A stretch of DNA of 64,000 nucleotides from Heliocidaris tuberculata (taxonomy: Eukaryota; Echinodermata; Echinoidea; Camarodonta; Echinometridae): NCBI GenBank assembly GCA_025618425.1, contig CM046849.1, positions 33,096,336 through 33,160,335 on the forward strand, written 5' to 3'. Under the pieces are notes generated by a model. It ran no database searches and was not told the DNA's origin. It saw only the letters and a program-made list of their open reading frames with translations. Positions 4,039 through 47,700 of this stretch are shown one piece after another (within the stretch, counting starts at the first letter, position 1; every line of letters starts with the position of its first letter). Both the position numbers and the translations under genes were made by a program.

Positions 4039-4056
4039 GTCCGTCCGTCCGTCCGT
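3978..4056. repeat. (GT)n followed by (TCCG)n microsatellite; LINE target
   Basis: About 25 GT units run into about five TCCG units, ending at 4056. The TCCG tract resumes at 8111-8128 after the LINE poly-A tail, so it doubles as the target-site duplication of the LINE. Confidence 0.9.
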
Positions 4057-4072
4057 GGTGGGTAATCAAGGA

Positions 4073-8606: not shown

Positions 8607-8900
8607 TTTATTACGCATTGCGTAATTTACTCATTCACTTGTTTAGTTTGTTATTAGGTACAGAAGTGCATAATGAAATGCATTAAAATGCATGTAGCCC
8701 CCCCCCCCCCCATCCTCTCTAGGTCCAAGAAATAATATTTATCCAGTTACTTTCAAGACTGTTTTACCATTTGTGAAAATTAGCTGTGCAGTTTTTATTA
8801 GCATTTGGTAAAAAGAGTAATCCTCACAAAAGAATATCAGCTAAATTGATGCAGCACCTAAAACTTGTGAGAGAAGATTTACAAGGCAGTCTCCAGGAAC
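8607..8900. other. Probable CERS intron, no exon recognised
   Basis: Includes a poly-C run at 8699-8711. I searched for the missing N-terminal CERS exon (first membrane span, Trp/Pro-rich start) and did not find a convincing one here or further upstream. Confidence 0.4.
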
Positions 8901-9281
8901 CCTGATAACCTCTTGAGAAATCATGAAGAACATTTGATTTCTTGTCTCTTTTTCAGTATTGCGATATATATCTCTTGGTCATTTACATGTAGTTGGGATC
9001 AAATCAAAGAACCAAAGTGAGGCAGCCCCCAGCACCATCCTGGAGAAGGTCTACAAGTCTTTCTCCAAGAACATGGACAATCTCTTGGGAAATAATTTAG
9101 AATTTTCCATTTTTTGTCTCTTTTTCAGATGTATTGCCACTCCTCTTGGTCAAGTTGTGGGGATCATATCTATGAGGCAGCACCCAACACCATCCTTGAG
9201 AAAGTGTACAAGTCTATCTCCAAGAACACTCACAATATCTTGGGAAGTCATTTAGAATTTTCCATTTTTTGTCTCTCTTTC
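8881..9281 (+). pseudogene. Tandem decayed half-copies of the CERS homeodomain exon
   Basis: Two copies of the acceptor plus the 5' half of the homeodomain exon precede the real exon, with acceptor AG at 8955-8956 and 9127-9128 (the real one is at 9282-9283). Copy 1 still reads GIKSKN, then EAAPSTILEKVYKSFSKN. Copy 2 has a 10-base deletion after GGGGATCA that breaks the frame. Both run straight into intron-like sequence where the recognition-helix half should be, and neither has a usable donor. A still older scrap (AGGAACCCTGATA) lies near 8897. The spacing is 172 and 155 bp. They could act as decoy acceptors. Confidence 0.8.
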
Positions 9282-9283
9282 AG

Positions 9284-9520
9284 ATGTATTGCCACTCCTC
9301 TAGGTCAAGTAGTGGGGATCAAATCCAAGAACCATTATGAGGCAGCACCCAACACCATCCTGGAGAAAGTTTACAAGTCGGTCTCCAAGAACCCTGATAG
9401 GAAACGGCTAGAGGGACTAGCCAAACAGCTGGACTGGTCAGTTAGGACAGTTCAGAGGTGGTTCAGACGAAGACGAAATCAAGACAGACCCAGCATGCTT
9501 GTTAAATTCACAGAAACATG
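9284..9520 (+). CDS. CERS: CERS exon: homeodomain-like segment
   Basis: It starts after TTTCAG with one base of a split codon and ends with TG before GTGAGA, giving 78 complete codons. The product begins CIATPLGQVVGIKSKN and contains PNTILEKVYKSVSKNP, then the recognition-helix region WFRRRRNQDRP, which is nearly invariant in vertebrate homeodomain-bearing ceramide synthases. In that family the domain is truncated and its DNA-binding role is doubtful, but the basic end is needed for activity. The split Cys codon (TG plus T of the next exon) confirms the join. Confidence 0.93.
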
Positions 9521-15876: not shown

Positions 15877-18800
15877 CTTCATACACTTTTTATTAATCAT
15901 CACTTATTTTGTATTTTATTCCTCGAAACTTTATTTTTGATGACCCAGTTGGAGGAGTGTGTTTTACATCGCAGCATTCAGCTATGGTGTATACAGCGTA
16001 CCCAGTGAGCCATGGTTCTGGGACCTCAGACTCTGCTTTCGTCACTTTCCATTCCATGTAAGTTTTCTTTACCTATATCAGGGGCACATCCATTTAAAAA
16101 AGAAAGGGGGGGGGGGACAGGGACACAATTCCCCCAAAATATCTGACAAAAAAAGGGCTATCACATTTTCCAGATGCATTTGGGCCGAAAATTTGAAAAA
16201 GGGGAGCACCTTTTTGGGGCTGAGTACTTATTGTATGCAATTGTATTTTTTTTCTTTCTTTTTTTCTTTCTTTCTTTTTTTTTTTTTTTGGGGGGGGGGG
16301 GCGCGGGGCTGGCTATGCCCTCTTAATCTGCCAGTGAGCTACATGTACATGTAGGGTCTATCTTATCACTTTCTATTTCATGTTTCATGTAAGTCTTTTG
16401 ATGGTCCACCACATAGAAAGAACCAAAGGGACAATAGCTACCCATAATATTGTTGGGTAGTTTTTTAGAAGTATCTGTTACCTGCATAGGCTAATGTACA
16501 TTGTACATGTAGTTTCAACTTCTGAAAGGCATAATTTTTGAAAGTCTGTGATGATTTCTAAATTGTTGGAAAACACTGATTTGAAAGATCAATCCTAAGC
16601 TGCTTTTGTTCATAATAATGGTATTGATATTTGGTTCAATTGTATAACGTCCCAAATCCCAATGTGCTTCCAAAGAGCTTTGGAGATTATTACCCCAACT
16701 TCAGCTCTAGCAAATTTTACCAGCACATGGTTCATGTCCAGGAATGATCCTGCCAGGAAGTCATGGACCCATTTATCTCACCTGGGTTGATTCCAAAGGA
16801 TATTAGTGCTGCTTCAGGGATTTGAACCCCATACCTAATGGTTGCACAGTCCGGGGACTTATCCACTAGACCACAACCTTGTTGTGTTGAAAGAGGATTT
16901 TACTTCAGAAATTTATTTCCAGGATTTTTGTGTGTGCAATGTTTGGCAAAAGCACATAGACAACTAGAGTTCTGCAAATAATTCTAAATATTTGTTGCAA
17001 AAATGTTTCCTTAAGGATACAAATGTATTTTCCACAGCTCCATAATTTCTAACTGAACAGGAACAAAAATAGATATTTATAGACTACATGTATGTCCTTT
17101 TTTTTTTTTTATTCATTTGAATATTTCCCCTCTTTTTAAAAATGTTTTTATTTATTTTAATTTTTCTTTTACAGCCAATGACATCACAGATCTACAACTA
17201 CTACATGCTAGAGATGTCCTTTTATTTCTCCCTCATTCTGTCTCTTTGTACTGATGTCAGGAGAAAGGTTAGTAAGAAATTTGATTTACTTGTACCCTTT
17301 GCCTGAGATTTTGGAAAAATGCTGTTGTCTCAGCAGTCGAGCTTCCAGTTCTTGCTCTTGTTCAAGGTTCAGTTTTTATTTCTGTACTGAAAATGAAAGC
17401 TATCAAAATGTTCATGAATTTGTTTAATCTTATACTGTGTGTTCGTTCTACATGAGTGTATGAGTGTATATACAGAATGATAAGAGATTAAGAGTAGTTA
17501 AAAGTCTTATTCTCATCAACATGTACAGTTGTAGGAACATTTTGTGAAATAATTGAAAGAAGTATTGAATGTTTTTGTACAATTTGTGCTGTGGGATAGG
17601 ATATACATGTATTTACATGTAGTACAATGATGATTTCTTTACAAGGGCACTGTTGATGAATTTCATAGTCAACTTGTGAAACTGGTGAATGACCTGTTTA
17701 ATTCCTCCTCACACAGACAGAATGATGAAAAAATCATGTTTAATGCAAACCTATTCCAAGGGCACTCACATGGCATGTTTCTACAGGAGACTCGGAAAGT
17801 AACAGAATCATTTTACCTGGAATAGTAACCTACAATCAGAATCTAAGGGGTTTGTTTCTACAGGAGCACAATAAACTGTTTATTTGCGTATTTAGCCCTC
17901 TCATGATAGGAATTATTAAAGGGCTAAATTGATCACATTTTGTTCTTCAAGTTGGCAACAAAAATATTTTTCTTTTAGTGCTGCATGGTTCTAATGAAAT
18001 GTAATGTCTTTGAAACCAACAGACATGGTTACGAACTTGTTGAAAAGTAGAAAAAAATGTCAGTTTTGACCCCCGATAACCATGACTTTGGACCTCTCAA
18101 CTGTTGTATGGCGTGTGATAAGCGTGACACCCCAGATGCCAATTTACGAATGTTAAAGCTTATTCTCCTTTTAAAAATTTCTGGCATCAAAGGCAATATG
18201 GTCATGCAACAGAAATGGACACAGTGTTTGCAGAAATTCTTTGCTCTTTCTACTCCTTCATCTGGTATATTTTTAGGGCTCTGAATCAAAAGTTATTGAG
18301 CCAAACCACAAAATGTGGTCAATTGTTTCTAAAGAGTTAATGTAATTTACTGGTTACACTTGATGCCTTGAAAGTGGGCGTTACGTGCATGATGCGTGCA
18401 TTATGCATTATGTTTTGTGTCACATGACCTTTAACAGAAATGGTAACAGAAAGGGTAACAGAAATGGTGACAGAAATGGTGACAGAAATGGTAACAGAAA
18501 TGAAGACAGAAATGGTGACAGAAATGGTGACAGAAATGGTAACAGAAATGGTGACAGAAATGGTGACAGAAATGGTGACAGAAATGGTGATAGAAATGGT
18601 GACAGAAATGGTAACAGAAAGGGTAACAGAAATGGTGACAGAAATGGTGACAGAAATGGTGACAGAAATGGTGACAGAAATGGTGACAGAAATGGTGACA
18701 GAAATGGTGACAGAAATGGTAACAGAAATGGTAACAGAAATGGTAACAGAAATGGTGACAGAAATGGTGACAGAAATGGTAAGAGAAATGGTGACAGAAA

Positions 18801-21800
18801 TGGTAACAGAAATGGTGACAGAAATGGTGACAGAAATGGTGACAGAAATGGTGACAGAAATGGTGACAGAAATGGTGACAGAAATGGTGACAGAAATGGT
18901 GACAGAAATGGTAACAGAAATGGTAACAGAAATAGTAACAGAAATGGTGACAGAAATGGTAACAGAAATGGTAACAGAAATGGTAACAGAAATGGTGACA
19001 GAAATGGTAACAGAAATGGTGACAGAAATGGTAACATAAATGTTTCTACAGAGCTGAGACAGTGAGTGTACCCATAAAAAATCCATCTCTGGAGATGTGT
19101 ATGATGGAATTGGAAATAATTGGATTATATTGTGTTTCTACAGGTGCATGTACATGTACCTGGAAATAATCCAATAGACCTGGGAAGTAAAGGTATTTTA
19201 AAATCCTGTAGAAACATGCTGAATGTAGATTGAAAGCTAATTCTGTTAATGGCACTACCTTTAGCTGTTGTCCATGAATTATTAAACTAATAATGGGGGG
19301 ATGATGGGGGTGGGGTGCACCAATGTTCTCATTTTGTTCCCAGGGAAATAAAAGGATGGATTATGTTTACCAATCCAAAATTCACCCATTAGATATATTG
19401 CTTTGCTACTCTATACTTTATTAGGTATTAGCATTGAAATGTCTCTTTCAGTTTTTTTTTTCATGTGATTGTTATGTTATTTATGCTTATGCTTTGTATT
19501 GCAAAACAAAATATTGATGTCAATGTTGATGAAGTTTCATAAAAAAGTCCCATTGTTCATAATTTCAAATTATAGAATGTGTCCTGTGCCAATCACATGA
19601 TATAAGTTACAGCATAGCATTGATATTGAAAATGAAAGAGAAATACATGTACCGCTACATTTCATAATTAGATTTTATTAATGTCAATATGCAGTGCTTT
19701 TGTATGTACCACAGAGAATTCTTTTTAAAAATGTTTACAATAGGATGTGGTGTTAACAAAGGAAATTTCTGTTTGGAAATGGCTCGGGGGGGGGGGGGGG
19801 GCTATTCATAAGCCGGGATTTTATCAAATTTCAACGCTTTCAGTTATGCCCTTCACAATGAACATAAAATAGCTCGCTTCAATTAAATACTTAATGTCTA
19901 CAGGCCTTCAAACTTTCAAAATTTGTCAAATGTCCGTCTGTGACTAACAGATCAAGCTGTATAAACTTGTTGAATATATAAAAGATGATCTCAGATTTAG
20001 AAATTGTTAAATTATTGACTCAAAGAACACCTAATGTAAGAGAAAACACTCTTTAGACCTGAGGAATAGTTAAATAAGTCATTTTGTTATTTCTTTACAA
20101 GTCTCCATGAGATCAACTAAATAGCAAGTAAGAGGGGGGAGGGGAGATGAAAAAAAGGCCTAACTACATATATCCTATTTTAGTAAAGGGCAATTCCACA
20201 TGGGAAAAACAACAACAACAAAATTTAATTTCAGATTTATACTAATGAAAATCAGTTTAATAGTCCGAAATAGGCAAATCCTTAAATCACAAGAATCTGA
20301 AAAAACTTTTCCCACATCTCAATCAGGATTCGCACAATGCATGTTTGATGCATGGAAATGAGAACTTCAAAAATGCAAGCATTTTCTGGTAATTCTGTTA
20401 CCAAAGATATATACCTCAATATAATCAATATAATCAATGTAAGTGGACACTTTTGGGTATGAACTAGTTCAGGTGAAAGAATGAGTACATCTGCAGATTA
20501 TGAATTGGTGAGAAGGGAATGGAAGTCCAAAATTATTGCATAGCCTTAAAAAATGTGAGCAAAATATCTCTCATTTGTAATTCTGTTACCATGGAATTGC
20601 CCTAAATGCCAATTGCAGAGTATTGAATGCTGTATTACTGACTATTCCCTGTGATGTCCTTGTCTTTTCTATTCAGGATTTTGTCCCTCAGTTTATCCAT
20701 CACTTTACCACTATCTTCCTGATGGGTTTCTCTTGGACGTGTAACTTTACCAGGGTTGGATGTATCGTCTTGGTAACGCATGATGTGGCTGACATCTTCT
20801 TGGAGGTAAGGATGGGAGATGGAGTTGGGGTGATCTCATAATTTGCTCCTTGACATTTGCTTCAGGCTTTATATTGGCAAAGATATAGGGTTAAAGTGTT
20901 CCAATCACCAAGAAATATACTCTTTATGTTAGAGCTTCCATGTCAGCTTCAAATATTATTCTATAAACAGATATTGCAAGTTCAAGAGCGTAAAAGCGAC
21001 TGGTGAGTAGACTACTCAATGCAGCCATACGCGCTCGCCAAGAAAAGGGCTTGCGTGGAACCCAAATCGGAGCTCTGTTCCGCGCGCGCACCTTCATGAT
21101 ATCCTTTATTTCCTTCCTACTCCTTAACTGTTGACCTATAGAATGCCAGATAAAGTTCTTGGAGCTTGATTTGCATGCTTTCTAGCAGTACAAAAATCAT
21201 TTTTTCAGGTGATTGGTACACTGTAAGGTTAGAGGTCCCATTGGGTTTTGGGTTAGGTTTAGGGTTAGGGTTAGGGTTGCCTGTAGTGTGTGGTTTAGGG
21301 TTAAAGTTAGGGCTTCCATTAGTGCAGGAACTTGACCACAGAGCAATTTTCAACTGAGCGTGTCTTGTGCAATTGTTCCTTGAGAAAGATCAGTGAGCTG
21401 AGAGAGGGATGAATTTATATGGATTGTGAAGGGGCAAGTCTAAGAAAATGGCCCATGGTATCAAACCAAAAAAATCTTAGATGAACTAGATGCACAAAGA
21501 AAAATATTTCCGCCAAATCCATGACCTTGACCAACCCAACCTGATGGAATAATCAGCTAGTTGATTGCGGCAGGTAACCATGAAAAAGAAGAGCACTGTT
21601 TAACTTTTAAGATGCTATTAGGGTCTGATAATACTTTGAAGACTAAATTTTTAATCATTAATTTAGATTATTCTACATGTATCTTTCATAAGGCCTTCAG
21701 AGGTTCTTAATATGCAGACTATGCGGAAATTGTTCTTGGTCAATGATTATCAACGAGGTGAACTATCAAATCTTAAATGTTACTCATATTAGTAGAAATT

Positions 21801-24800
21801 TTTTTTTTTTAAAACAACATTAAATCAGTTTTTAAGCTGTAAACTACAATATGCTGGCTGTGCAAAAACTTTTCTTGATCTCTAATTATCCACTAGTTGA
21901 ACTATCAAATCTTAACTTTTACTGACATAGTGGTAGAAAATATTCAGAGAGGAAAAAAACCCAAACATACTGCATTAGTATGCTGTAAACTATCTGTATT
22001 CATGTTTTTATGGCACATGTGTTAGTACGTTCAAAATTCACTGATTCATTCTTTACATCGCATTCTTTCAAAATCTCTTTCACCGTTGGAATGTTGAATA
22101 AGTATTGAGGATCAAAAGGGAATGCTTTATATCATCTTTTGTGTATAGATTGCATTGAGGCTGAGATTGGTTGAGCTTATTCAACCACTATAGCAACATA
22201 GAAGCCTCTTCTGGAAGCCATGACTCTGAAAGGAAATAATCGTAAATAGAAGTGAATGATTTATTTTGGTCCATTGAATGCAACAGCAGTGCTTGATAAG
22301 TACTAAATCAGATTTCAGGTGCAGAGTGTCATTACAATTATTGTGAGTCTTCAATGGAAAACAGATTAATAATTTTTTATTTATTTATTTATTTGTTTAT
22401 TTATTTTTTGTATTGAATGATTTTACTTGTCATAAATGATACGCTATATTTTTCCAGAGAACATAAGAACATAACATAAAAAAGTCAATTGAGGCAATTA
22501 TACATTGGAATATATAGAGATGGAACATAACTTGAACGTTATCGAAACATTCCCCTTTACACCAAACTCCCTTATCAGTTGATTTTTTTTTGCAAAGGAC
22601 TTTGCCTTAGGAAGGAAATATGTAAATATATATATAAAAACCCAAAACTGGTGTAATAGGGAGACACTCTTTGTATTTTTATATATGTGTGTATATATGT
22701 AAATATATATATATATATATATAAAAACCCAAAACTGGTGTAATAGGGAGACACTCTTTGTATTTTTTCTTTGTACTTGTGTCTCCCATACGCACCTCGT
22801 GTCTCCTGTACACAGGTCGCGCTGTCGTTGTCTCCGAAAAACGGTATCCAGTGAAATTATATATGTATACATGTTTATGTTTAAATTCCTATGTAAGGCT
22901 AAGTCCTGTGCAAAAAAAAAAAAAAATCGACTGATAGGAGAATTTGGTGTAAAGGGGTTTTTCGATTCACCATAATGTTTTGGGCACTGTGTTTTCCCCC
23001 TTTCCGTAGGGGTAGGAGGCATTGTATCTATATAAATATAGAGGGCGCCAAATTACTTATATTGCTACAAAGTTTTGTGCATTAGGGAGAACTCATTTTC
23101 TTATAATATAACATGTAAAATTTATTATCGGTATGTATAACTCCTGGGGATCTAACTTTTAATGTTTGTGAGAAAGACATTATACTGGCGCAAAGCCAAG
23201 TTAGCCAACTCATGCTGGAAACCATTATTGTACTTTGTGAGGGGTCCTTTTGATAATAAAGGGCAGAAATTGCGTAAAGCAATTGAACATTACTTCCCGC
23301 ATTTTTAGTACAAAAAATCATCTACAATTACAGTCTATTTGTGTTCAGTGTACAATAAAGGCCTTTGGCTAAATAATATGGGCAACCAGTACAGTGTTCA
23401 TATAGAACACTTGAAAAAAACATGTTTTGATGATTTATCTACTCAAGAGGTTCCAAGTCCTAACATGCCAATGTGAGAAGTGGAATATTTTTGTAGGTTT
23501 TGATTAAGCAATTATCTTTTATCATCCATCTCTTAAGAGCCATTATGTTGTGTGAGCATATTGCTCTGTCTGGCTTCTGTAGTCTGCAGATACAAACCCT
23601 TGTCATCTATAATGCAGGATTTCAACTGTCTAAACTATAATTTATGTGCTGTAGGCCTACTGATTAGTTGCTATCAAGCTTATTCAGACTTAGGTCTGTG
23701 CTGGCAGACTACATGTACATGTATTTACCTACACTGTTTACCATATTAAAGATAAAGTTGAGTTCTGGTCATGCAATTACATGTACATTGTCTCAAAGCA
23801 ATTGGGAAAGGTGGATTACCGGTATGTCTACATAAGAATTGGGGTATACTGTGAGGTTTTGAAATCATTAAAGTGTACCAACCACCTGAAAAAATAATTG
23901 TGTACAGCTAGAAAGTATAAAATCAACCTCAAAGAACTTTGTCTGGTATTCTATAGGTCAACAGTTAATGAGTATGAAGGAAATAAAGGATAACATGAAA
24001 ATGCTCGCGCGGAACCGAACTCAGAGTTTGGTTCCGCGCGAGCCTTTACCTTGGCGAGCGCGTACGGGTGTGTCGAGTAGTCTACTCACAAGTTGCTTTT
24101 ATGCTTATAGAGAGTGTAATTAAAATTGCAATATCTCTTCATAGAATTAATATTTGAAGCCCATATTTTGAATATAGTATAACGACATGCAACCTCTAAC
24201 ATACCGAGCAACATTATTTTTGGTGATTGGTACCCTTTAAAATGATAAGAAATCTCAATGAAAAGCACATGCACTGCACACAACATATCGCATGAATGTT
24301 CGGCCTGAACACTTCAGCTATTTCTTGTCATATTTCCAATATGAGTGTTTTTGAAGAGCAATCTTTTTCAGGGGACATTTCTACTACGTTGTTCTTCAAA
24401 CTGACATAAAATGAATCAGAAAGCTCAGGAATTATTTTTCACCTTTCCCAGAACTCAACCTTCTTTTTAAGTAGGATTAGAATTGAATTATAGGGGCAGC
24501 CCACCCTGATATTTAGTTGTTCTTTATAATAAAAGCAGAAAATCAGAGAAACAGTCTACAGATCAGTGAATGTTTGAAAATAAATAAGTTATGATTTTTT
24601 CAAAAGTTATAATTGATCTAGCACAATTTAAATTAGCAATACTGTGATGATGCTTTCAAAGTCCTCTCCAATTCGCTCCCTTTTTATTTATATTATTCCC
24701 CTTTCACTTTTTAATAAGTGCCCTTTTCCCCTTCTGATAGATGCCACTCACTCCTCATTTCATGACTGTTCTACAGCCCACCTGTATAGTTATACTTGTT

Positions 24801-27800
24801 CAACTCTTGTAAGATTTATGATTACATAGTTTATTTCTGTTCTATGGAACACACTACTGTACCCCTCCATGTTTGTAACGCCCTGACGGTCAATTCATTC
24901 AAATCACTTCTGAAAACATTTATTATCCAATAGTCTGTTAATTATATGATTAATTTATGTCAAATACTCTAAGTACTTACTACAATAAGATCTTAATTAT
25001 TCAACTACAGTTAACTTTGCCTAAGTCGAATCTGTTGGGACCAAAAAAATTATTCGACTTACGCAAAATTTGACTTAGGAAGTGTAAATAACACATATCT
25101 TGCATTCGACTTAGGGAAAGTTTGACTTGTGCGACTTCGAGTTATGCAAGGTTAACTGTATTATATTTTTGTGTTCATAAATACCATTCATTACTTCTTA
25201 ATTGTTAAATCATTGTATGATGTTATACATAAACTACTTGAATTATGTATTGTACATGTACATGTAGATGTATACTATTATACCTATATATTTAGATTAA
25301 TCATGTAATATTATTGTTGTATTGATTGTTACAAAACCCTGTGGAGCACATAGTGAATTTATCATTATGCACTACATGTATATAGAAATTACTTTCTGAC
25401 TTTTTTTTTGTTTTGTTTACCCAACAGGTTGCCAAAATATGTAATTATGCCACACTGCATTTGGCAGCTAATGGGCTGTTTGGAGTTTTTTCTGTTGTAT
25501 TTCTTGTTTCTCGGATGATATTCTTTCCATTTGGGTAAGTTAGATTGTCCTAGATTAATATCCAAGTGATATATGTTCACTCTTTCTCTCTCTCTCTCTC
25601 TCCCTCACTTTTTCTCCTCACTTTTGCTCCCTTTCCTCATACTTTATCTTTCTCCTTCCTCTCTCGCCCCCTTCTCTCTCTCTCTCTTTCCCTCCCTGCC
25701 TGGCCTGACTCTCTCTCTCTTTCTCCTCTCTCCCTCGCTTTTTCTCCTCTCTTTTCCTCCCCCTTCCCTCATCCTCTCTCATACTCTGTCTTTCTCCCTC
25801 CTCTTTCCTTGTTTTCCCTCTCTCTTCCCTTCATCTTTTTTTCCTCTTTTCCCCTTTCCCTCACTTCTCCCTATTTCTAACTCCTCTCCTTTTTCTCATA
25901 CTTGTATCATTCTTCCTCCTCTCTCTCCCCCTTTCTCTCTCTCTCTCCCCCCTTTCTCTCTCTCTCTCCCCCCCTTCTCTCTCTCTCTCTCTCTCTCCCT
26001 CCCCCCACCCCCTCTCTCTCTCTTTCTCTCCTGCCTGTCTCCCTTTCTCTCTCTTTCTCTCTATTGTATAATATACAGACTGGGAAGATGTTTAAATATG
26101 CACAGTTTGAGTCTGGTGCTAACTCCATGTTTGGTGTGTTTACCGCTGCGTTCTTTGCATCACGCATGGTCTTTTTCCCGTTTTGGTAAGTTTTCTCACG
26201 AATTCACTTAAGAAACACAAGCTTTAAGCCTGGGTCACATTTGACCGATAACGATAATGATAACGATATTTTTTAATTAAAGGTACACTCTACACTGCAT
26301 GGTGTGTACATGTATGTGTGAGTGTGCTTGGATTCTGTTAATAGTAGGGCAGCTCTAGAGTCTACTTTTAATGAAAAATCTCTTTATCGTTATCGGACAA
26401 ATGTGACACAAGCTTTACTTGTGTTAATAATATGTAAATGTCATTTGTATTAGGTAGCTTAGCAAAATGTGATGGCGCGTAAGAATGCGGGAAAGACGCA
26501 TATGACAAAATTATTTAAAATCATCATTTTATTCTATAGAAGCAGAACCAAAACTTGATGTGAAAACTTTTATTCAGATAAGTCTGATTGCGATTTTAGA
26601 TGCACAGACAGAACCAGCAGTTTTGCTCTTTGTGTCTTTACGCTACCTTTACTTTACCTTACTGACTCTCAAATGTCACTGTTAAAGTGGGTTTTTTTTG
26701 TTGTATTGCTGTGTTTATGGCCTTTTATATAACCTGACTCCTTAAAGGAAACCAAAACCCAAGGAGAGAATCAATGTTATTGGAAAGTGAGAATTCAGAG
26801 AAGCACTTTACAAAAAGTTTCATTAAAATAGGCTAAAAAATGAGAGAGTTATGGAAGTTTGAAAAGTCTCGTTTTACTTTCTATGGGGATCCTCAAATTG
26901 GCAAAATTGCTTCAAAATGGCTGATTTTGTGAACAACTCTCCATTTGTTTTGTACACAGATTTTCAGATTTTCCCCATTATCTTTCATGGTGCAGTTAAT
27001 CTCCTTCTGAGCTCAACATATATAATGGGAAAATGTATTTTACACCACATATGTCGAGTTCAGGAGGAGACAAGGAGCACCCTGAGAGATAATGGGGAAA
27101 AAATCTGAAAATCTGTGTACAAAACAAATGGAGAGTTGTTCACAAAATCAGCCATTTTGAAGCAATTTTGCCAATTTGAGGATCCCCATAGAAAGTAAAA
27201 CGAGACTTTTCAAACTTCCATAACTCTCTCATTTTTTAGCCTATTTTAATGAAACTTTTTGTAAAGTGCTTCTCTGAATTCTCACTTTCCAATAACATTG
27301 ATTCTCTCCTTGGGTTTTGGTTTCCTTTAATCTATCATTGAAACCCGCTGCCTAATGGAACAGGGTGATTCCCTGGGGGGGGGGGGGGGTGGGGGGGCAT
27401 GTCTCATTGAGGTCTGTACATCATCCGCATACACAAAAACGGATAAAAAGGGTACTTTTTCAGCATTAGGTGCGTAACCTGGGTTACGCGTCAAAAACAG
27501 CAAAAATCAAGAAACAGGGTATCAAATTCAAAGGTGATAGGAAGAAGATCCGCGGAAGGGGGTGGGGGATATAGTTCGGTAATATGTTCCAAATTAGGTT
27601 AAATTTCTTTTACGGTTCCTTTTTGGCTAAAAAAGGTGTGTGATGATGATAAAAATTGTAATCCTGTAATAGGATGTAAAATACCACGCAAGGTATAAAA
27701 TTGCTGTTTAAAATCAGAGATGTTAGACGGGTGTCCCCATTTAGGGTATCAAAACTACCCCTACTGCAATCCCCGTTTAGGGTGCTTTTCAGAAAGTGAT

Positions 27801-30800
27801 TTACACGGATGATGTACAGGTCTCAATGAGACATGCCACCCCAGGGGTGGCTCCTGTATTAAACATATGGCAATGAGAGAATTCAGGAGTTATCCGGTTA
27901 ATGAGAAGGTGGAGTACTGGTAAATGGGGGGGGGGGGGGGGTGAAAATATGATCTCATTGTCATCTCAGTTTACTGTCCAAACAATAGTGGGAGCACCGT
28001 GGTGAAGGCTCTTGACTCTTATAGGAGAGGTCCTGAGTTTGATCCTCACTGGTTGCTTACTTCCTTGGACAGGACATTTCACCCATGTGGCCCTCGATAT
28101 CCACCCAGGTGTCAATGGGTACATGGTAATTGCTGCCGTAATAATGTTTGTAGGCAGTGTAAAAATTAAAATTTCTTTCGTGAGAGCTACTTCGAAGTCC
28201 ACCTACTGTGTTCAGAGATTTTAAAGTAGAATTTCATTGATTTTGAATATTGATTTAATTTTTACTATTGCATAGGTGAAGCTTAGATTGAACAAGGTTA
28301 TCAAAATTCAACGCTTGGAAACATTTGAAGTAATGATTATTATCAATTATAAAATGATATAACACAGCCCCGCTATAGCACCTATAGAGCTCTTTGAACG
28401 CTGCTGAGATATGTGACGTCATACCTGGGAGCAATCCTTCCTAAGCAGACGATGCCCCATAACAGCTTATACATTTTCAGTGCCTGTTTTGTCATCTCAT
28501 CTTCACTTATTTCTCTTACTTCACTAGCGTCAGTATAAATGCTTATTTGTTGCCTCACTCTAAATTTCCTGCATGGTACTATTTTGATGAAAAATGCAGC
28601 GTTAAAAAAATAAAGGAATCAATCGCTTGTAAACAAAAAAAGATGCCATTGTATTTTCAGCTGCATGCACCGCGGCATGTCGGCGTTTCAAGAGGGAACG
28701 AATACCATCCATGCTATAATTCAGCGGGCTTTACAATTCGAAGGTGTGATTTCTTTGATTGATCATTGACCCTTATCATGACTTTTTACAAACAAAAGAT
28801 TTTAGTTACTAGAAACGGTTTCACTTCCCTTTTAGAATGATGTGAAATACGGTCATGGTGAAACAAACCAAACTCTTTATAATTTAAAAATAATTGCATT
28901 GCAGTTACGTTCACTTGATATAGGACGTCGTCTGCTTAGGCAGGATTGGCACCTGATGTGACGTCACAAAAACATTGGTATATTTCTGGCGAATCGCTCG
29001 GATATCCCAGATGCTGAGAAGTGTTTTTATTTGTGTTATTTTTTAATCATCAAACACGCAGTTAACGTAAAACTTATACGATTACCATCTGCAAGCTTTC
29101 TAGTTTCTAGAGATACATTATTGAGCATATTTGTGATTTGCTTTGAATATCTACTTTAATGCACTACATGTATGACCCATGGGCAGAAATATTATTTGAC
29201 GGTGGCTCTTTTTTCATCTACAGTGACCTTTTCAAGAGTTTCGGGGGCTAATTGCCCTTATCCCCCGTTTATTTTATTCACTGATTGTAGGGCCCTCACT
29301 CAGGAGGAACAATGGGCGATTTCATGCCCGGTGTTGGTGTTCGGTGTTAGGTTTTATTTTGCAGTGAAATCATGATCTAACATTGACTAAGAAAGGAGAA
29401 AAAAATTAGTCAGTGTTAGGTGTTGACCTCTGATTTTTTGATGTAGTTATGGTTGCCATTGTTAATTTTTGTCAAATATTTTCTGCTTAACCGAGCTTGG
29501 CAGTCGGGGTTAATTTCATGTTCAAATTTCCATTCACTGACATTATACCCCTAGGTATTAAGAAATTTTCATTTCACATTCTTTGTTTTATTTATTTTAT
29601 CTATATATTATTTATTTATGGGTATATAAAATTACTGATCAGTAGCAAGCTGAAAGGATCAGTAAATGTGGCAACATAAAAACATTAGATATATAACAAT
29701 TAATTTACAATACAAATAATAAAATGACAGAAACAAAAATACAAATGCAAACATACCTGCTCAGTAGGCAATATGACATTTAAATACATATTACACATTA
29801 AATACATAATTATAAGCAATTAAATAGTATACACATGCATAAACACACCCACAATCACACCCACTCCAACATACACACAAGACAAAAATACAAGAAAGGT
29901 AAATGTGATCAAGGAATTAGTAATATCCCGAAACATCAAATATTGCATTTCATAATCTGTCAGATTGGTTTATGGCAATAGCAACTATATCATTAATGGG
30001 TCAGTATTGGTGTTGGTGTTGCTAGCTATGGGAAATTTCGGGTGATTAATCGTGAGAAATCAAGTCAGTAGGCATCATTTGAAGTGTAATTTCACAGGTG
30101 TTATGAGGTAGTATGTTATAAGCCCACATTTGGTCCTAAAGCACACGGAAAGGAACTACTTTTGCTTTTTAATGGGCTGATGGAGTGAATAAATTATCTT
30201 CCCTTATTTTCTTTTCAGAAAGATTTAATAAATATGACGTGGTATACTCTGTAGTTAATGACTCGGAAAATCCACATTGCCGGTATTAACTAGGATGAGC
30301 TCTAAATCAACAATCCCAACGCAAAAGGCATGAAATTTCACAGCTTTATCTGAGCGGATGCCCGAAATTTGGCTGTTTGCCAGGTACGCCCTGTGCCGTC
30401 TGATCCGGTATCTAGCTGCATTAGCTACTGCAGCATTTTCGTCTGCAAGTGAGAAACTCAGGAGAAAGGAAATCTAAACTTACTGTTCCTGTCAAGACTA
30501 TCCATTTCTGAGAAGTTTCTGACCGCACTCTAGATCAAATAAGGATTACTGTTAGAATTACCAGACAATTCGTTTAATTTGACGATATTCTAGATTAATA
30601 ATTCAGTAGTTAAAAGCAAAATATTTTTCCTACGTTGAGCATGGTGCTGACGCCATTGCAAGTGTTAGGTTTTCGATGTGCTTTGTTAGGATATTGAACC
30701 TCCTAGATCCTTAGTCTTATTCTGATTAGAGATGTTGGAGCTCAAGAATTTTTGCTCTAAACACCAACACCAAACACCAACCCCGAGCATGAATTCACCA

Positions 30801-33800
30801 AATATTGATAATAAATGATAATAATAAGCCATTCTTGTATAGCGCATATCACATTATGATATAACGTCCCCGTGCGCTTCCAAAGGGTTTTGAAGTGCAT
30901 TTCAAGGAATAAATCCTGCCAGGTACCCATTTAACACCAGGGTGGAGAGTGGCAAATGTGGATTAATGTCTTGCCAAAAGACGTTAGTGCTGGGCTGAGA
31001 TTCGAACCCTCAACCCTTGGAATGAGAGTCAAGTGAATGAACCACTGTACCACGACACCTCCACTGATGATGCATTAATAGTAATTTGTGGATAAATGTT
31101 ATATACATGTATTTATTATTATGTAATATTGTATGTATTACATGTATTATTATTCCTAAAGAGGATTTTGCAGCTGAAATAAAGTGCTTTTGTGTTAAGA
31201 CACCTCTTTAACCTTGACCTAAAGAAAGTTTGTTGAACCTGACCAATATACTCTGTCGGGGAAGGCCAATATTAAAGGGATACTTTGGTAGGCCTGCATG
31301 GGCGATTTCCGATGAGAGAGGAAAATATACTCGGAGCTTCGTGTCACTTCGATACAAGGACTTCCATCGCACGTGCTAAAATATGTGATTCATATTGGAC
31401 CACCTCTGAGATGAGACTGGCTTGTGTTTTAAATTTCGCGCGGTGGGAAAGTAATCAAACATATGGAAAAGTAATTACAGAGCCAGCTCTCTGGTAGAGC
31501 CTGGGATTAGTTACGTAATCGTGGCGACAACGAGTCGCGGCAGGGCAGTGCAGAAGCGATGGCTAGACTAATCAACCAGAAGTTAACCGTGTTTTGTATT
31601 TGGAAATATTTCAGCATTACACTAAACTTGTTTGGGGGAACGAGGTTACAACCAGTTACAAGACTAAGAGCCCGGGACTGGTTAAACCCGAAGTACATGT
31701 ACATGTATTCGCCGAGCTCCAGTTCGGTCAACTTCGTGCCGTCCGATCATTTATGACCTTAGTCCGACGGCCTCGCACAACGGGCGTGCTATGTGTACAA
31801 GTAAACGAGCCTTTTGCAAATTCCGCACGATTTCATTTCCCCATGAGTTGTCATTAGACTGCCCCTTTAAACATACTGGGTACGTAGCCATGGGCTTGCG
31901 CCTAAACAATGAAGATGCCTCAAATGCAGGCTAAACAATGGATGCGCATATCAGATCTTTCGAAGTATGTGATTTCTGAAACAAAAATGGCTTGAAATTA
32001 AAATATTTGATATTGGAATAAGAATGATAATATATTTGATGTCATAATTTGGCCAATACAGAATATATTGAACTCGATATACAAACAATATTGGACTTGT
32101 CTTTGACTCGGACTTGTCCAATATGTTGTCATATCTTGTCCAATATTCCTTATATTGACCTCAGGGTCATCCGGTATTATATATTATTAGTTTTTGTCAC
32201 ATTTTTGTTCGTACTGTGGTGATATTACACATAGTTTATTAAAGGAAACCAAAACCCAAGGAGAGAATCAATGTTATTGGAAAGTGAAAATTCAGAGAGG
32301 CACTTCACAAAAAGTTTCAATAAAATTGGTTAAAAAATGAGAGAGTTATGGAAGTTTGAAAAGTCTCGTTTTACTTTCTATGGGGATCCTCCTGAACTCG
32401 ACATATGTGGTGTAAAATACATTTTCCCATTATATATGTTGAGCTCAGAAGGAGATTAACTGCACCTTGAAAGATAATGGGGAAAATCTGAAAATCTGTG
32501 TACAAAACAAATGGAGAGTTGTTCACAAAATCAGCCATTTTGAAGCAATTTTGCCAATTTGAGGATCCCCATAGAAAGTAAAACGAGACTTTTCAAATTT
32601 CCATAACTCTCTCATTTTTTAACCAATTTTAATGAAACTTTTTGTAAAGTGCTTCTCTGAATTCTCACTTTCCAATAACATTGATTCTCTCCTTGGGTTT
32701 TGGTTTCCTTTAAGGACGCTACACATACATGTACTAAACATTGTTGATACAGTGGAAACTCACTATAACGAGGACCTTGGGACCATGAAAATTTCCTTGT
32801 GGCATGTCACGAATCTCCTTATATCAGGATAAACGAAAGAACATAAAGACATGGGACCACTAAAATTACCTTGTTATATCCGAAATCTTGTCATATTGGA
32901 GCTGTTTATAGTGATTTTCTACTGTTATTTTTACTACATGTATGAAATGTCCCCGCATGTTGAAAGCTTCTCATTCAATCACTAGATATAGAGTTATTAA
33001 CCCTTTCTAGACAATAGACCACATTTTGTGGTTTGGCTCAATAACTTTTGATTCAGAGCCCTAAAAAATGTTCCAGATACACGAGTAGAAAGAGCAAAAA
33101 TTTCTGCACATACTATGTCCATTTTTGTTGCCTGACCATATTGCATTTGATGCCAGGAATTTTAAAAACAAGAATAAACTTTAAAATCCTTAAATTGGCA
33201 ACACATTGAGAGGTTCAAAATCATTGTTTTTTAACAAAATTGGCAATTTTTTCAACTTTTCAACAAAATTAATAACCATTAATATTGTTTTCAAAGACAT
33301 TACACTTTATTAGAACCATGGAGCACTAAAAGAAAAATACTATTGTTGCCAATTTGAAGAACAAAATGTGATCAATTTAGCCCTGAAATAATTCCTGTCC
33401 TGAAAGGGTTAATGTAGAACTGTTTATTTTTCAAAGTCCAACTTTCTGTTAATCTATTATTGGAAGAACAGTCTGGGTGTTGGCATAAGTCCAGTGCAGT
33501 CATATGATTTGACTCATGCTTTGAAAAGTTATTGCATTGTACATGTGCGTTAGAATGTTCTTGAAGAGCATGTATTTTTTGTAAGTGTGTGGAGGAATTT
33601 TGATTTCGGCGATAAAATTCAATTGAACGTGTTTTCAATTCCTTGTTTATTTTTTGATAAACTTGCGGATTTAACTCTTACTGTACTAAGAGGATTTGTC
33701 TGTTTCAGGAATTTACTAAACCATGAACAAAGCTTGCACTTCTCTAATTGTCTGTTAAAGTGTACCAATCATCAACAAATATTTTGCTTTGTATATTAGG

Positions 33801-36800
33801 GGTTCCATGACGCTATACTATATTAGAAATATGAGCTTCAAATGTTAATTCTATATAAAGAGATATTGCAGATTGAAAGTGGAAGCAATTGGGAAAGGTT
33901 GCTTATGTAGTACATAAGCAACCTTTCCCAATTGCTTCCAGTTTCTTTTACAATGTAATCACATGACCAGAACTCAACTTTATCTTTAGGCTTGTACATG
34001 TAGCTTGCTGCTATAAGTAGAGCCTAATATTACACAAGGTCTTACAAAGTCAGATTGAAAATTTTGAAATGTACATGTGCTTATTTTCGAGAAAGTCATC
34101 ATCGTCATCTCTCTCTCTCTCTCTCTCTACATCTATTTGTCTTTCTCTCTTTCACTCTCCCAATTTCCCTCCCTCCCTTTCTTCATCTCTCTCCCTTTCT
34201 CCCTTCCTCCCCTCTCTTTCCTTTCTCCATCTCACTTTCATCATCATCTCTCTATCTCTCTCTTTCTTCTTCCCTCCCTTCCTCCCTTCCTCCCCTCTCC
34301 TTCCTTTCTCTCTCCATCTCCCTTTCTTCATCTCTCTCTCTCTCTCTTTCCCTCTCTCTTTCTCCATCTCCCTTTCTTCATCTCTCTCTCTCTCCCTCTC
34401 TCTCTCCTTTTCTTCCCTCACTTCCTCCCTTCCTCCTCTCCTTTCCTCCCTTCCTCTCCTCTCCTTCCTTTCTCTCTCTCCATCTCCCTATCTTCATCTC
34501 TCTCCATCACCACGACACCATGGAGGTGTCGTGGTATAGTGGTTCATTCACTTGACTCTCAATCCAAGGGTTGAGGATTTGAATCTCAGCCCGGCACTAG
34601 CGTCTTTTGGCAAGACATTAATCCACATTTGCCACTCTCCACCCAGGTGTGAAATGGGTACCTGGCAGGATTTATCCTTGAAATGCACTGTGCGCTGATT
34701 ACGGCTGCTGGAGCTAAAGCCAGGGTAATAATATCCAAACCTTTTGGAAGCGCATAGAGACTTTATATCATAATGTGATATGCGCTATACAAGAACGATT
34801 TATTAGGTGGTCTGTCGTAGACAGATCACCTCTTAATTTCGTCAGAATTTTCTTTGTTTTTATTATTTATTATTTATTATTTTTATCCTCAAAATTTTGT
34901 GCGCACGATATCTCAAAATTGACAAGATCAATTTCCGTGATTTTCATACCAGTTATAAAGCCCATAACGAAGATGTCACACCAAACTTTTCAAGGTCATC
35001 AGGTCATTGTGACGTCATCCAGGCGCCATTTTGTAAAATCACATTATTGATCATATCTTCATTACAAGTCATCAAAAATGAACTATATTTGGTACACATG
35101 AACTTCAGGTCAAGGGTCAACATCACATCTCATCAAAACGCGCGCGCGCGTCATGACGCGCACGTACGCGCGCGTCAAATTTTAAAATTGCTCAAAATCA
35201 CCCAGGGACCAAACCAGAGTACGTTTCAGGTCATTTTAAGCATTTCAAAAATTTGCGCGCGCGTTTTTGTGCGTTACGCCAGTACGCAACGTAGAATTGC
35301 CGTTTTTTCGCATGGTTTGTCTTCTTGACACCATTCTTGACCATTTTCAACTATTTACACTAATTCTCGACCTTTCATAATGCCATAAGGGCGCAACGAA
35401 CTTTAAAATTCGTGCGTGCGTCAATAGGCAAAATAAAGTAAAAAGTGGTAAAAACATGCCTATCTTGAATCCGCCATAGCTCGTTAGAAAGCCTGGAGAC
35501 CCCCATTTTTTGTACATTTTCTGAAAGCCTGTAAGTTGTAAATCAGAATTCATGAATAAAATTCTCCACATGTATGTTGTGACGTCATCATATTTGCATA
35601 TAAACTCAAAAATTCGATTTTGAAAAAATGAAGTCATAAATTTTGTATTCATTCGACAATATTTCACTCATACTTGGTCAATTTTCTTCCAAATTTCGAT
35701 ATGTTGTAGGGGAGACAATTCTCTACAAGATTAGTATTCACCATTTTTCATTTTGACAAAGGCATCATGGCGTATTTTTGCTATGAAAGGAGGCATGTCA
35801 ATTTTTCACATTTTGCGTGTATTCTCTATGGGAGATGACTTTTCTCAAATCATGATTCTGCATGCCAGTCTTTTTTGAGCCGAATCTCCGTCATTTTTGC
35901 TCTATTTTCCCCAAAATTTCAGTATGTGATAGCTGAGTCTGTGTGCTACATACATACGCACACACACCTACACACACGCACATATACAGGTGTATGCATA
36001 AAGCATGTCATGATTATGCACTGACATTCTACAAGGGTAAATTTGAAAGTAACGATGGCCATAAAATGGCAGTGTGGTGGTTTAAACATGTGAAATCTGA
36101 CGAAATGTGCTTACCCCATTCAGGTACATCAATATCAACATGGAAAAGGGTCATTCACCGTTATCATAATTACCGACAGACCACCTAATTCGTCTTCAGT
36201 GACAAATTAAATTTCTAGTTATTATTATTATTATTATTATCTCCCTTTCTTCATCTCTCTCTCTCTCTTATATGATATCTACAGGATCATCCACAGTACA
36301 GTTGTTCATGGCCTTGAGATCATGAGAGATTTCCCAGCATACTACCTCTTCAATGGCCTTCTCATCATCCTTCAGATTCTAAATACTTACTGGTTCATTC
36401 TCATCATGTCTATGGTCTACAGAGCTCTTGTTCATGGACAGGTAATAAATACAAAAACAACAACAAATTGTCATATTGCTGTAACCCGACCGACCCTGAA
36501 ATTCCGTCCGACCCTAGACTTCTTAAGAAAAAAAAATTGAAGAAAATTGCAATCGATCTTTAAAAATCATGATGGCAGTGTTGATCTAGTTCACCAAAAA
36601 AATAAGATCGTAGATTTGAAATGTTTAATTATTGATGCTATTTCACAAAGAACATTTTATGTAGGAGAAAACATTCTTTAAAGCTGGTGAAAAGTTACAT
36701 TTGGTCATTTTGTTTTTTCTTCTACTCCATGAAATCAACTATATATACTCAGTAAACGACCTACCTACAGCTCTACATGTACATGTGCCCCATTTTTAAA

Positions 36801-38090: not shown

Positions 38091-39640
38091 AGCATCATTT
38101 GAATTGATCCAATCAGGATGGAGCATTGAGGTGAAAGCAGTCTCAATATTCTCCACGTGCTGAATTTGTTTTACTTTACCGGGGGGGGGGGGGGATAAAA
38201 AGCCCACAGCCACTCATCATGAGGCATCGTTTGAATTTTACCAATCAGGATTCATCATGTAGGAAGAAGCAGTCTCACCAATCCACACATGACGTTGAAT
38301 AAGTAAACTCCATGAAGGAAAATTGAAAGAGGTTGAATCTACTCATTAACTGATCTTTTCCTCGTTTAGTACTTTCTGACAGGAATTGAATGATTGTTCT
38401 ATGTATTGTACTCCATTTGTCAGCAAATGTTAGTGTTGAAACACAGTCCAACCTGTCTATGAAGGCACTCCTAGGGATACAGAAAATACTTATTTACGAC
38501 TGATGAAAGTCTTCAAAATTTGAATTGTGACTGAGTGAATTGAATAACTAATTGCCTTGGTGAATTTATTGACTGATTGATTGACAGCCGTCTTCTTTTC
38601 ACAGTGCAGCCCTTTTAATATCAATTAATATTCATCTAACAGGACCTGTCTGCAATTACAAACATTCTATTGAAAACAGAGAATACAAAATTACTAAATT
38701 TCCACACAAAACTCATTGTTCGTTAAGGAGTGACTTGATCCACCACATAGGGCAGTATTATTTTTCACCCATCACATAATATTTCTCCAGAATCCTTTGC
38801 TGAAAAATATGTTTATAATGTATGGGCTTCTCTACGTTCTAGAGAAAGAGTAGTCAGTGCATTCCTGTGTAGAGTTTAATAGTAATAATTACTTCACATT
38901 TATGTAAAGCAGTCATTCGTTGATGCAAGAATAGTTTTAGTAGCTGAACCATGAGTTTTCTTATCATTAATTAATGGTTTATGTGTCTCTTGTTCAGACA
39001 CCTGGATATAGGGAGAATCTTTGCCAACTCTTTCTGTTTTATTATCATGTGAGGGCGCTATGATGACTTCTACAGCAGAGTCATCAAAGGCATAGTTTGG
39101 CCAACTTGGTTACAGTTGGACACAATATGGCCCATATTCCTTTTTTGTTTGCTTGCTCAGCAAATGCAACATATGCCTCATGTTGTCACATTCTTGGTGT
39201 TGAGGTGGCCAAACTCTGTGTGGCTTGGCATTGAATTGTGCTACCGTTTTACTGTAAAATGGATGCTGGGTTTTCTGGCTTTTTCTTTGCGCTGTAACCT
39301 CAGTCTCTATTCAGGCCTTTTCAGGCTTCACACTGTATCTATAGAACATTTGGGGCTCCAGTATTTTGGGGTCTTTTTTTCCCCCAAGCCAATTAGTTAA
39401 AAACCAACAGGTATCAATTCTATTAATGCCATTGGGGTTCTCCTGATACAGAGTGCGTGAGAGTTAATCCTGAAGTCAATCTCAATCTGAACCATGAGAC
39501 ACCAAAACCGTCATCGTTAAAAAGAGTTATCAGTTCAGCTTTGAAAGACTTGTAAACGTAAAGTTCATCTCTTTCTTGGGCTTTATTCATATGTGAGGTA
39601 GTAGACTGCCTTTCAGACTTGTTGCAGCAAAATAAAACAA
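38091..39640 (+). other. Probable CERS 3' UTR
   Basis: Sequence downstream of the stop with no other gene. A poly-G run lies at 38180-38194. The direct repeat CCAATCAGGAT (38109 and 38239) suggests a small local duplication. The extent is a guess from the first AATAAA. Confidence 0.4.
39631..39636 (+). promoter_or_regulatory. Candidate polyadenylation signal for CERS
   Basis: AATAAA about 1.54 kb after the stop codon. Other candidates exist further on, so this is tentative. Confidence 0.3.
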
Positions 39641-44152: not shown

Positions 44153-44737
44153 TCTGGACCGAATGCTAGACATAACTCAAACCCAAACCTGAACCCAAAC
44201 CTGAACCCAAACCTGAAACCGAGACCTGAACCCAAACCTGAACCCAAACCTGAACCCAAACCTGAAACCCAAACCTGAAACCCAAACCTGAACCCAAACC
44301 TGAACCCAAACCTGAACCCAAACCTGAACCCAAACCTGAAACCAAACCTGAAACCCAGACCTGAACCCAGACCTGAACCCAGACCTGAACCCAGACCTGA
44401 ACCCAGACCTGAACCCAAACCTTAACCCAAACCTGAAACCCAAACCTGAAACCCAAACCTGAAACCCAAACCTGAAACCCAAACCTGAAACCCAAACCTG
44501 AAACCCAAACCTGAAACCCAAACCTGAAACCCAAACCTGAACCCAAACCTGAAACCCAAACCTGAAACCCAAACCTGAAACCCAAACCTGAAACCCAAAC
44601 CTGAAACCCAAACCTGAAACCCAAACCTGAACCCAAACCTGAAACCCAAACCTGAAACCCAAACCTGAAACCCAAACCTTAACCTAAACCTGAACCCAAA
44701 CCTGAACCCAAACCTGAACCCAAATCTGAAACCCAAC
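44153..44737. repeat. C-rich minisatellite, 12/13-bp CCTGAACCCAAA units
   Basis: About 46 units alternate between CCTGAACCCAAA (12 bp) and CCTGAAACCCAAA (13 bp). The opposite strand is TTTGGGTTTCAGG, with regularly spaced GGG runs that could form quadruplexes. The 12/13 mix shifts phase repeatedly, so the long minus-strand frames ([11 protein letters not shown]) are artefacts. Confidence 0.95.
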
Positions 44738-47700
44738 TGTATCTCCTAATCATGTTGTCTATGGCTTGTCTTAACGATGTCCAATACAAAGTACATGCTT
44801 GCATGTTGCTTTCCTTACACAATGTGACCCATCTTGTCTAAAGATCTCTTTACCTATCTATGAAACAAAGTGTCCAGTATTCTGAAAAGCAGAAGTAGTT
44901 CAAGCTTGCTTAGCTTTGTCGTCTGAGATAAGGAACGCTAAATTTCAGCATCTGCATTCTATGCAATCCTTTAATTTTGTAATGACATGCATACACAAAT
45001 TAATGTCACTGTGAAATCAAGTTCTGATATTCATTGTATGACTGAATGAGTTTTGTTTGTACAAAATTGTTATAATTTAATAGTAACTTGTAAGAAATGG
45101 AGAGGTGAATATTTGACATTCCATATGAAGCTAATAACGGACCAACTTATCTTTAGTCAGGAATATGAACCTAGCCTAAACTAACTCCACTTTTGAGAGT
45201 ACCTGCCATTGTGATAGGGAAAAGGGAATTGAAAGTTTACTATATATGTACATGTTTTCGCTAATCATTCCAAAGTTACACCATTGTGTCTACTGCATAT
45301 ACCGGTATATATATTTTTCAAAGTTGTACAAAGTCATTATTACAATTGGCTCTCAATGCCTCTTTATCAGTGTAAATTCCATCCTTTTGCTTTATCTTTT
45401 TCAAATTATTATAAATAATGTCTTTTATTATGTTTATTATGTGCCATCTAGTACTCATGCCATGCTTATTTCATATTCTAAGGGCTGGAAGGACGTTAAC
45501 TCTGGTAAATGATATGATGTAACTCCCTTTGGCCTTTCAGAAGATGACATCTTATCTGTCATTATGTAAAACAATCAATTGATCATCTAATGCAGCAATT
45601 CACAATCAATACCGTTGAAAAACAAAATAACTCTTTCACAAATGCAATATATGGAATTTTAGTATTTTTCTTTGTAATAAAATGATGAATAAAATCATCA
45701 GAATGTATAACGCATGAACGAAGCCATCCTTGTAAAACAAACATTACTTTACTATGCATACATCTAATTCAAAATTCAAATAAATTATTCTATATTCTGG
45801 ATATTAAGATCATAAATGAGACATGAATACTGTTTTATAATATCAAGGGTGATAAATATCTTCTTCATTGTACTATCCTTGCATATATGAGTGTTATAAC
45901 TGGTTGTATACACTGTTAAGTGATTTTAAATGGTTCCTATAGGGGTCTAAAATATGATATTATCAACATATATATTTTTAAAAACTCTTTGCAGTTTAGG
46001 AACAGTACGAAATTGATAAGGAGGAGAATTTCATTTTATACCTTCATACACTTATCAAGATACGTATCAAGATATATTACTCTTATTTCAAGATGGACTA
46101 TTTGTGGAATGGAAAAGGAAAAAAAAAAATGAAAAGATCATTGCCTCTCATACTGAAAAATCTACTGCTCATATCTTGTTGGGAAATTTTCAGTGGGTCA
46201 ACTTTTCTGCTATGCAAATGAATATTTATGAAATGTCACCTGTATAATAGTTTTTAAATGTGATTGATTAGTTGTTGCTCTATTTCGTGATGATATCTTC
46301 CAGAACAGAATGTATGACATGTTGATGAAATCAAGGATGAATTCTCTGGAAAGATTGATAGAGAAATAGAGCAGACTATTGTTGATTGTAATACTGAAGC
46401 ACTAATATAGTGAATTACTGTATTTGTACTGTATTTTGTAACATATTTATATGCATTGCTTGTCGTGTTTTGATGAAAGTTTTTATTTTTACTCGTTCAT
46501 AGCTATTTTTGATGAAAGGTGTGTTTTTCTATTGTTCCAAAGCTATTTTCTCACCTTGCTTTTATTCTGCTTCATTAGAAAGAATACTATTTGTAATAGT
46601 AATATATATATATATTGTATTTTTTATATCTACATATCATTGATATTGTTTGCTTCTTCGGTACTGTTAAAAATAGTGGAAATAATGTGTTTTATAGGTC
46701 TAAATCATTTTCAGTGCATTAGTTTGTATTCCATAGTTCATTGTAGATCTATATTTATTATATATACTTGTATATTTTACATAATTTTTCATGAATTTCC
46801 TCTTTTTCAAAATCTGAGACTAATCCTATATGTATAGTTATTGTATTTATCAAATTGTTTGAAATTAGATTGATTGTGTGTAAAGTCATTTAGAGAGATT
46901 TCGATTTAGAGAGATTTTTGTGACTGTGCTATGTTGTATTGTAGAACATTAAACAAAAATGAGCACATCCATAACAAAAGGTTAAATATCTCAATGTAAC
47001 TTTCTACAAAGTTAGACCATGGACCTACTAGTCCATGGTTAGACTGAGGACATCTTAAGAATACCAGTCAGAAAGCTTGAGTTGACGTTCTGTGATAATG
47101 TCTACAGGCACAAAACATTTATCCCATGAAAACAGTGTTAATTTTTTAGCTTTACAATAATTTGATATAAGGATGAAAACCTGTCATATATATTTATGTA
47201 TAGTTGGTCATTCTATAGAAGTATATAGTATTCACACAATAGTATACATATTTTTAAAAATGAGTATAAAGACACCACATTAAGACATGCATGTATCACA
47301 CTTTTGTATGAAATAACATGCTAATCTTCCAGTAATTAAGCTCTTCATTTCAGTCTGTATATTCATTTTTCATCTTCCTTCTCCCCTTGAGAAATTTAGT
47401 GGTTTATTATAGTGTTTTACTTTTGACCTACATTGTAATGTCTGGTTTTTTTCATGGCTTGTTTCAAGGCTTGGTTTTTGGACTGAATACTTTGTTGAAA
47501 AGGGGAAAGATTGTGACCATGTTTGTCATGGGTTGCCTAATAGACCAATTCACAGTTAGCACATGGAGGTACAAATGACTCCAGATATGCATAGATCTTT
47601 AAATCATGGAAAGGTCCCACTTTGTGCATTTTAGAATAATTACTCTTAGAGTGATGGAGGTGCTTCGTGAATAACTTTTGTTTCCCCTTTGAAAAGAATA

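Follow-up and report, generated by a model that had tools for sequence, protein, structure and literature searches.

The stretch of DNA considered here (hereafter the window; 64,000 nucleotides (nt), C18:33096336-33160335 of the 897-Mb genome of Heliocidaris tuberculata) carries on its + strand an intact gene for a ceramide synthase (CerS) of the Hox type, of which every coding exon except the first lies within the window (Table 1). One exon of this gene occurs twice in tandem. The two copies, termed A and B, very probably form a real, conserved pair that is enforced by the reading frame and spliced in a mutually exclusive manner, so far as this can be read from genomic and protein sequences. 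The exchange affects the membrane part of the enzyme and leaves its catalytic residues in place.

By its domains and motifs, the gene is a Hox-type ceramide synthase, and its product is predicted to N-acylate sphingoid bases. The TLC domain (PF03798) is recognized in both forms of the protein, at 152.8 bits with A and 157.6 bits with B (curated cut-off, 24.6), and a Hox-like domain (PF00046) lies N-terminal to it. The Lag1p motif is complete; its parts IHHF and THDVAD, both in the exon that precedes the pair, align with H211/H212 and D239/D242. In addition, the end of the protein contains DARSDVE, in agreement with DxRSDxE, the C-terminal motif of ceramide synthases (PMC8789539). In architecture (Hox-like plus TLC), catalytic residues and numbering, the protein resembles human ceramide synthase 6 (8QZ6, 8QZ7), which differs in being described with a single version of the swapped exon. 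The closest protein matches, among those listed, are from sea urchins. From residue 57 onward, and with the swapped segment excluded, 238 of 288 residues are identical to those of Strongylocentrotus purpuratus, while identity to the Lytechinus pictus model P0121 is 72%.

A second CerS gene in tandem was ruled out as the source of the extra exon. With the S. purpuratus protein as a tblastn query, each of the other exons of the TLC part has a single clear match in the window and, thus, the locus holds a duplicated exon and not a second gene. An exon-wise search of the whole genome for the TLC family gave two places at E ≤ 0.001, one of them exon 20677-20805. As this was the only exon of the present gene that the search recovered, single exons of other CerS genes may be missed likewise. 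The second place (L002) lies at C1:48890988-48891242 on the - strand and scores 30.2 bits.

Table 1. Coding exons of the ceramide synthase gene and the intron between exons A and B (positions within the window unless preceded by C18; TM, transmembrane segment).
Feature	Position	Strand	Remarks
First coding exon	C18:33088961-33089130		7.2 kb upstream of the window; 56 codons and two bases, starting MATETSWFW
Second coding exon, Hox-like domain	9284..9520	+	Protein matching; Pfam homeodomain, 31.6 bits (cut-off, 22.9)
Third coding exon, TM2	15949..16057	+	Protein matching, open frame
Fourth coding exon, TM3	17175..17267	+	Protein matching, open frame
Constant exon preceding the pair, 129 nt	20677..20805	+	Catalytic His-His and Asp pair of the Lag1p motif; Pfam TLC match
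Exon A, 107 nt	25428..25534	+	Residues 247-281 and two bases of codon 282 (Gly282); A-type proteins P0003, P0121
A-B intron, 544 nt	25535..26078	+	Predicted branch adenines 25558 (TTAAT) and 25880 (CTAAC)
Exon B, 107 nt	26079..26185	+	Same residues as A, with Trp282; B-type proteins P0002, P0001
Constant exon following the pair, 157 nt	36285..36441	+	End of TM6, specificity segment (placed via PMC10122649), TM7
Last coding exon, with stop codon	37947..38090	+	DARSDVE, a DxRSDxE motif

The structure of the pair agrees in every detail with a preliminary description of this DNA. Both exons have the coordinates and the length claimed there, as well as an AG acceptor and a GTAAGT donor; both are entered in phase 0, leave two bases over and align with each other without a gap. 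The codon split at their 3′ end is completed by the first base of the exon that starts at 36285, giving Gly with A and Trp with B, as had also been proposed. A and B, which are identical at 63 of 107 nt and at 17 of 35 whole-codon residues, show the features of a tandem exon pair: they are adjacent, homologous, of equal length and in the same phase. After splicing, the frame is open with either of them. Exactly one is required, since the use of both shifts the frame into a stop computed to lie 116 nt before the last exon junction, and the use of neither into one 124 nt before it. Nonsense-mediated decay usually follows a rule of 50-55 nt upstream of that junction. Thus, transcripts with both exons or with neither would be targets of decay.

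The differences between A and B are unevenly spread over the codon. Identity amounts to 26, 25 and 11 of 35 at positions 1, 2 and 3, respectively, and the proportion of differing sites is 0.85 for synonymous sites (pS, saturated) and 0.28 for nonsynonymous sites (pN). When the 43 changes were placed at random, under a simple null in which changes are uniform, at least 24 fell on third positions in 10 of 100,000 placements; in only 3 of 100,000 was this combined with a frame free of stops. This pattern, together with the random placements, indicates that A and B have both been protein-coding continuously since the duplication. It contradicts the possibility that A survives as a functionless relic of the duplication, transcribed at trace level. 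Such a reading could appeal to the fact that A is less well conserved than B when the window is compared with S. purpuratus. Nevertheless, A is open, has matching length and phase and keeps full splice sites, and A-type sequences with all nine diagnostic residues (see below) are found in S. purpuratus and L. pictus, so that a relic is very improbable.

Proteins of other species show how widely the two types are shared. With a B-type query, 196 of 462 candidates were hits, and the figures for relatives refer to the best 120 of the 196. In S. purpuratus, 'ceramide synthase 6 isoform X1' (P0002) is B-type and 'isoform X2' (P0003) is A-type, both with 383 amino acids. Their sequences are identical except at 21 positions, which run from 247 to 282; this confined exchange and the constraint of the frame both support mutually exclusive use of the exons. 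By sequence, X1 and X2 come from the same gene as that of the window and exchange the same residues, including Gly282 in the A-type and Trp282 in the B-type; the comparison covers protein records alone. A further S. purpuratus model, P0001, is also B-type. Of the 36 residues in the swapped segment, X1 shares 32 with window B and X2 shares 23 with window A. The 120 listed proteins were also compared in pairs with at least 25 segment columns and at least 70 flank columns in common; flanks more than 90% identical, together with a segment whose identity falls over 20 points below theirs, are seen only for P0003 with P0002 or P0001. As a query, residues 240-290 of P0003 returned only P0003, of 2 candidates.

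A query with the A form, from exon 20677 to the end, gave a single hit of 28 candidates, the L. pictus model P0121 of 182 amino acids. Its segment is identical to window A at 24 of 36 residues, to S. purpuratus A at 27 and to either B at 16. Nine positions distinguish A from B, as set by the window species and S. purpuratus (248, 250, 251, 257, 259, 263, 268, 270 and 282). At these, the three A sequences share AICHALSVG, and the two B sequences under comparison share GMFEGMTAW; P0121 is A-type at all nine, including Gly282. Thus, the search for the pair in related species yielded both types as whole-protein isoforms in S. purpuratus and the A-type in L. pictus. Disruption of one exon in all relatives, which would have spoken against the pair, is not seen: A is intact in both of these species and B in S. 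purpuratus. These protein comparisons place the origin of the pair no later than the common ancestor of S. purpuratus and the window species; A is also shared with L. pictus. For Diadema setosum, P0004 reads AMCHPMTAW at the diagnostic positions, being A-like at three, B-like at five and neither at one. Three alternative positions for Diadema with respect to A and B lie within 0.3 log-likelihood units of one another, and the test rejects none of them (with a program warning that replicates were too few); in two FastTree runs, Diadema falls with B, weakly supported at 0.69 and 0.72.

In addition to the frame, exclusion of one exon by the other could have a physical basis, and several known types were considered. 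Exclusion through an intron too short for splicing was ruled out, as 544 nt separate A from B, and so was a mixture of U2 and U12 sites, as both exons have an AG acceptor and a GTAAGT donor. Competing RNA structures of the docking/selector kind were tried in this one genome and set aside; there are nine inverted-repeat pairs in 24500-27500, with a long one downstream of B. Rfam gave no match at its gathering threshold in 20500-38500. The long repeat, in the intron downstream of B, is perfect, with arms at 26742-26972 and 27100-27330 (231 nt, 100% identity) that lie 127 nt apart, and is like a recent fold-back element.

The A-B intron has a composition of its own. Bases 25575-26068 are 93% C+T, and no AG occurs from 25567 to 26076, a zone of 510 nt that starts about 30 nt past the donor of A. 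The gap between successive AGs before B, of 512 nt, is the largest in the window, followed by gaps of 430 and 385 nt, and the AG-free zones of the seven other acceptors of the gene range from 26 to 214 nt. This layout resembles that of human OGDH exons 4a and 4b, where the branch point is distant from its acceptor, although the likeness is suggestive only. The OGDH exons are also a homologous pair in a metabolic enzyme, with a combined length that is not a multiple of three, and they too have a long pyrimidine tract with an AG exclusion zone beginning near the upstream donor (PMC7969005). What keeps them apart is a set of branch points 25-41 nt past that donor and, beyond these, a giant pyrimidine tract; the mapped branch points lie 25, 31 and 36 nt from the donor, and a threshold of about 50 nt has been proposed (PMC7969005). 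By analogy, the branch point of B might lie too near the donor of A, with the giant tract carrying the scan to the acceptor, and physical exclusion would then act together with frame-based decay. The extent and the start of the AG-free zone suit such an arrangement, as does the adenine of the TTAAT candidate, at intron base 24. By contrast, the CTAAC candidate is the better site and is unblocked; the urchin branch points, unlike the mapped ones of OGDH, are predicted and include this free competitor. Moreover, the tract remains AG-free in 54% of shuffles, and its lack of AG thus requires no selection, while gaps of comparable kind, the 430 and 385 nt mentioned above, exist elsewhere in the window. 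Physical exclusion of this type is a possible rival of, or addition to, exclusion by the frame, though less likely than not.

With regard to the protein, the preliminary description had placed the swap in a membrane segment of the TLC domain near the loop that determines specificity. This is correct in outline and can be refined: the exchanged residues comprise the last part of TM5 together with most of TM6, whereas the specificity segment belongs to the constant exon that follows. Lys249, Tyr253 and Arg275 are retained in both forms. Residue 282, Trp in B and Gly in A, is eight residues ahead of the acyl-chain specificity segment. A course of events can be proposed in which a tandem duplication within one gene copied the exon that encodes residues 247-282, spanning the end of TM5, a cytoplasmic turn and most of TM6, and the copies came to be spliced mutually exclusively, with transcripts that carry both or neither being frame-shifted and probably removed by nonsense-mediated decay. 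Both products would fold as ceramide synthases with their catalytic residues kept. The swap would alter the side chains of TM5 and TM6, including the change from Trp282 to Gly toward the luminal end of TM6, and these side chains may tune substrate preference or stability.

A difference in lipid output between the two forms, as was suggested earlier, is plausible when judged from the sequences, though less likely than not. A fuller version of this reading, to be taken as a whole and with the same reserve, would see an urchin ceramide synthase switched by splicing. In it, A, through Gly282 and the altered faces of TM5 and TM6, would have a cavity roomier than that of B or differently shaped; A would make ceramides with other acyl chains or with other sphingoid bases, for instance longer or branched ones; and the choice between A and B would be under tissue or stage control via factors that bind the pyrimidine tract. 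The bases of starfish and sea cucumber cerebrosides are of the normal, iso and anteiso types, with lengths that are mostly C16-C19 but reach C22 (PMC8228791). Sea urchins may offer a similar choice.

Several observations weigh against the proposed account of the pair. Trp282, which A lacks, is found in 74% of 118 listed CerS proteins, and structure models fail to separate the A and B isoforms. In the comparison of the window with S. purpuratus, conservation is lower for A than for B or the constant part, which fits relaxed constraint and faster adaptation equally. The S. purpuratus isoforms are machine annotation, isoform names with an 'X' denoting automatic models, and the outside evidence as a whole consists of annotation and not of RNA. 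No B-type protein of L. pictus was seen among the matches listed, where the other model of this species, P0081, stops before the exon. Finally, the one sequence that stands for the three of the Diadema cluster is of neither type.

The absence of Trp282 from A and its faster evolution relative to B could also mean that A is a regulatory 'off' exon, encoding a protein of low activity or stability, or one that acts as a dominant-negative within the dimer; its use would lower ceramide synthesis and not change the type of ceramide made. In effect, CerS enzymes dimerize (PMC11919693) and, in CerS5, replacement of other conserved Trp residues by Ala lowered activity to below half in all cases but one (PMC11742613). 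Nevertheless, the sites mutated in CerS5 belong to the N terminus and to the stretch that links TM2 with TM3, away from 282 (PMC11742613), and A retains six near-invariant residues of the segment. Furthermore, nine A-specific residues, Gly282 among them, are identical across three species, which argues for a selected function and not for decay. An 'off' exon is, on balance, unlikely.

Other features of the window lie apart from the pair. Just upstream of the real Hox-like-domain exon, 8871-9327 hold tandem partial copies of it (pyrimidine tract, acceptor and first part of the exon) at a spacing of 155-172 nt. The N-terminal 25 residues of P0001 match a shifted frame of such a copy, at 14 of 25 positions at 9172 and 12 of 25 at 9017; 14 are also reached at one further place, and the next best match over six frames is 9. 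Similar copies are thus probably present in S. purpuratus too. At 3932-7837 (+), an open reading frame of 1301 amino acids appears by eye to encode a LINE-type endonuclease and reverse transcriptase, and a single-exon open frame of 415 amino acids at 58885-60132 (-) has the look of a rhodopsin-type G-protein-coupled receptor. Long simple-repeat arrays, with open frames on both strands, are found at 18364-19137, 44166-44745 and 49851-50381.

The border ahead of the swap can be compared with that of a human gene. In an alignment with a CERS2 sequence, its residue 247 falls on the last codon of exon 20677-20805. CERS2 is itself spliced alternatively, as its exon 8 (43 residues, 205-247), which matches exon 20677-20805 in length and place, is skipped in breast cancer (PMC7876150), the known event that comes nearest to the urchin pair. 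This exon border thus appears to be shared with humans. Unlike the urchin pair, CERS2 exon 8 is a cassette that is lost with most of the Lag1p motif, and no duplicate of it is described there (PMC7876150). Judged by titles and the starts of abstracts, none of the listed open-licence articles on ceramide synthases, sea urchin splicing, echinoderm sphingoid bases and mutually exclusive exons describes the urchin pair; a term check of two general papers on exon substitution found no 'ceramide synthase' in PMC9741552 and no 'ceramide' in PMC7954323. The earlier remark that no description was known therefore holds for the literature searched, but not for public annotation, where the S. purpuratus isoform pair is already named, which makes the novelty lower.

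Acyl-chain choice is usually ascribed to which CerS gene is expressed and to the segment between TM6 and TM7. In the urchin gene, the catalytic residues and the specificity segment are constant, TM5 is exchanged at its end and TM6 over most of its length, and the Trp/Gly switch is kept across species, which makes the pair a natural paired experiment. Comparison of A with B would reveal the share of TM6 in substrate choice and whether an animal sets its lipid composition via splicing. In mammals, CerS diversity is provided by six genes (PMC11919693); if the splicing switch is real, part of that diversity would come, in sea urchins, from one pair of exons.
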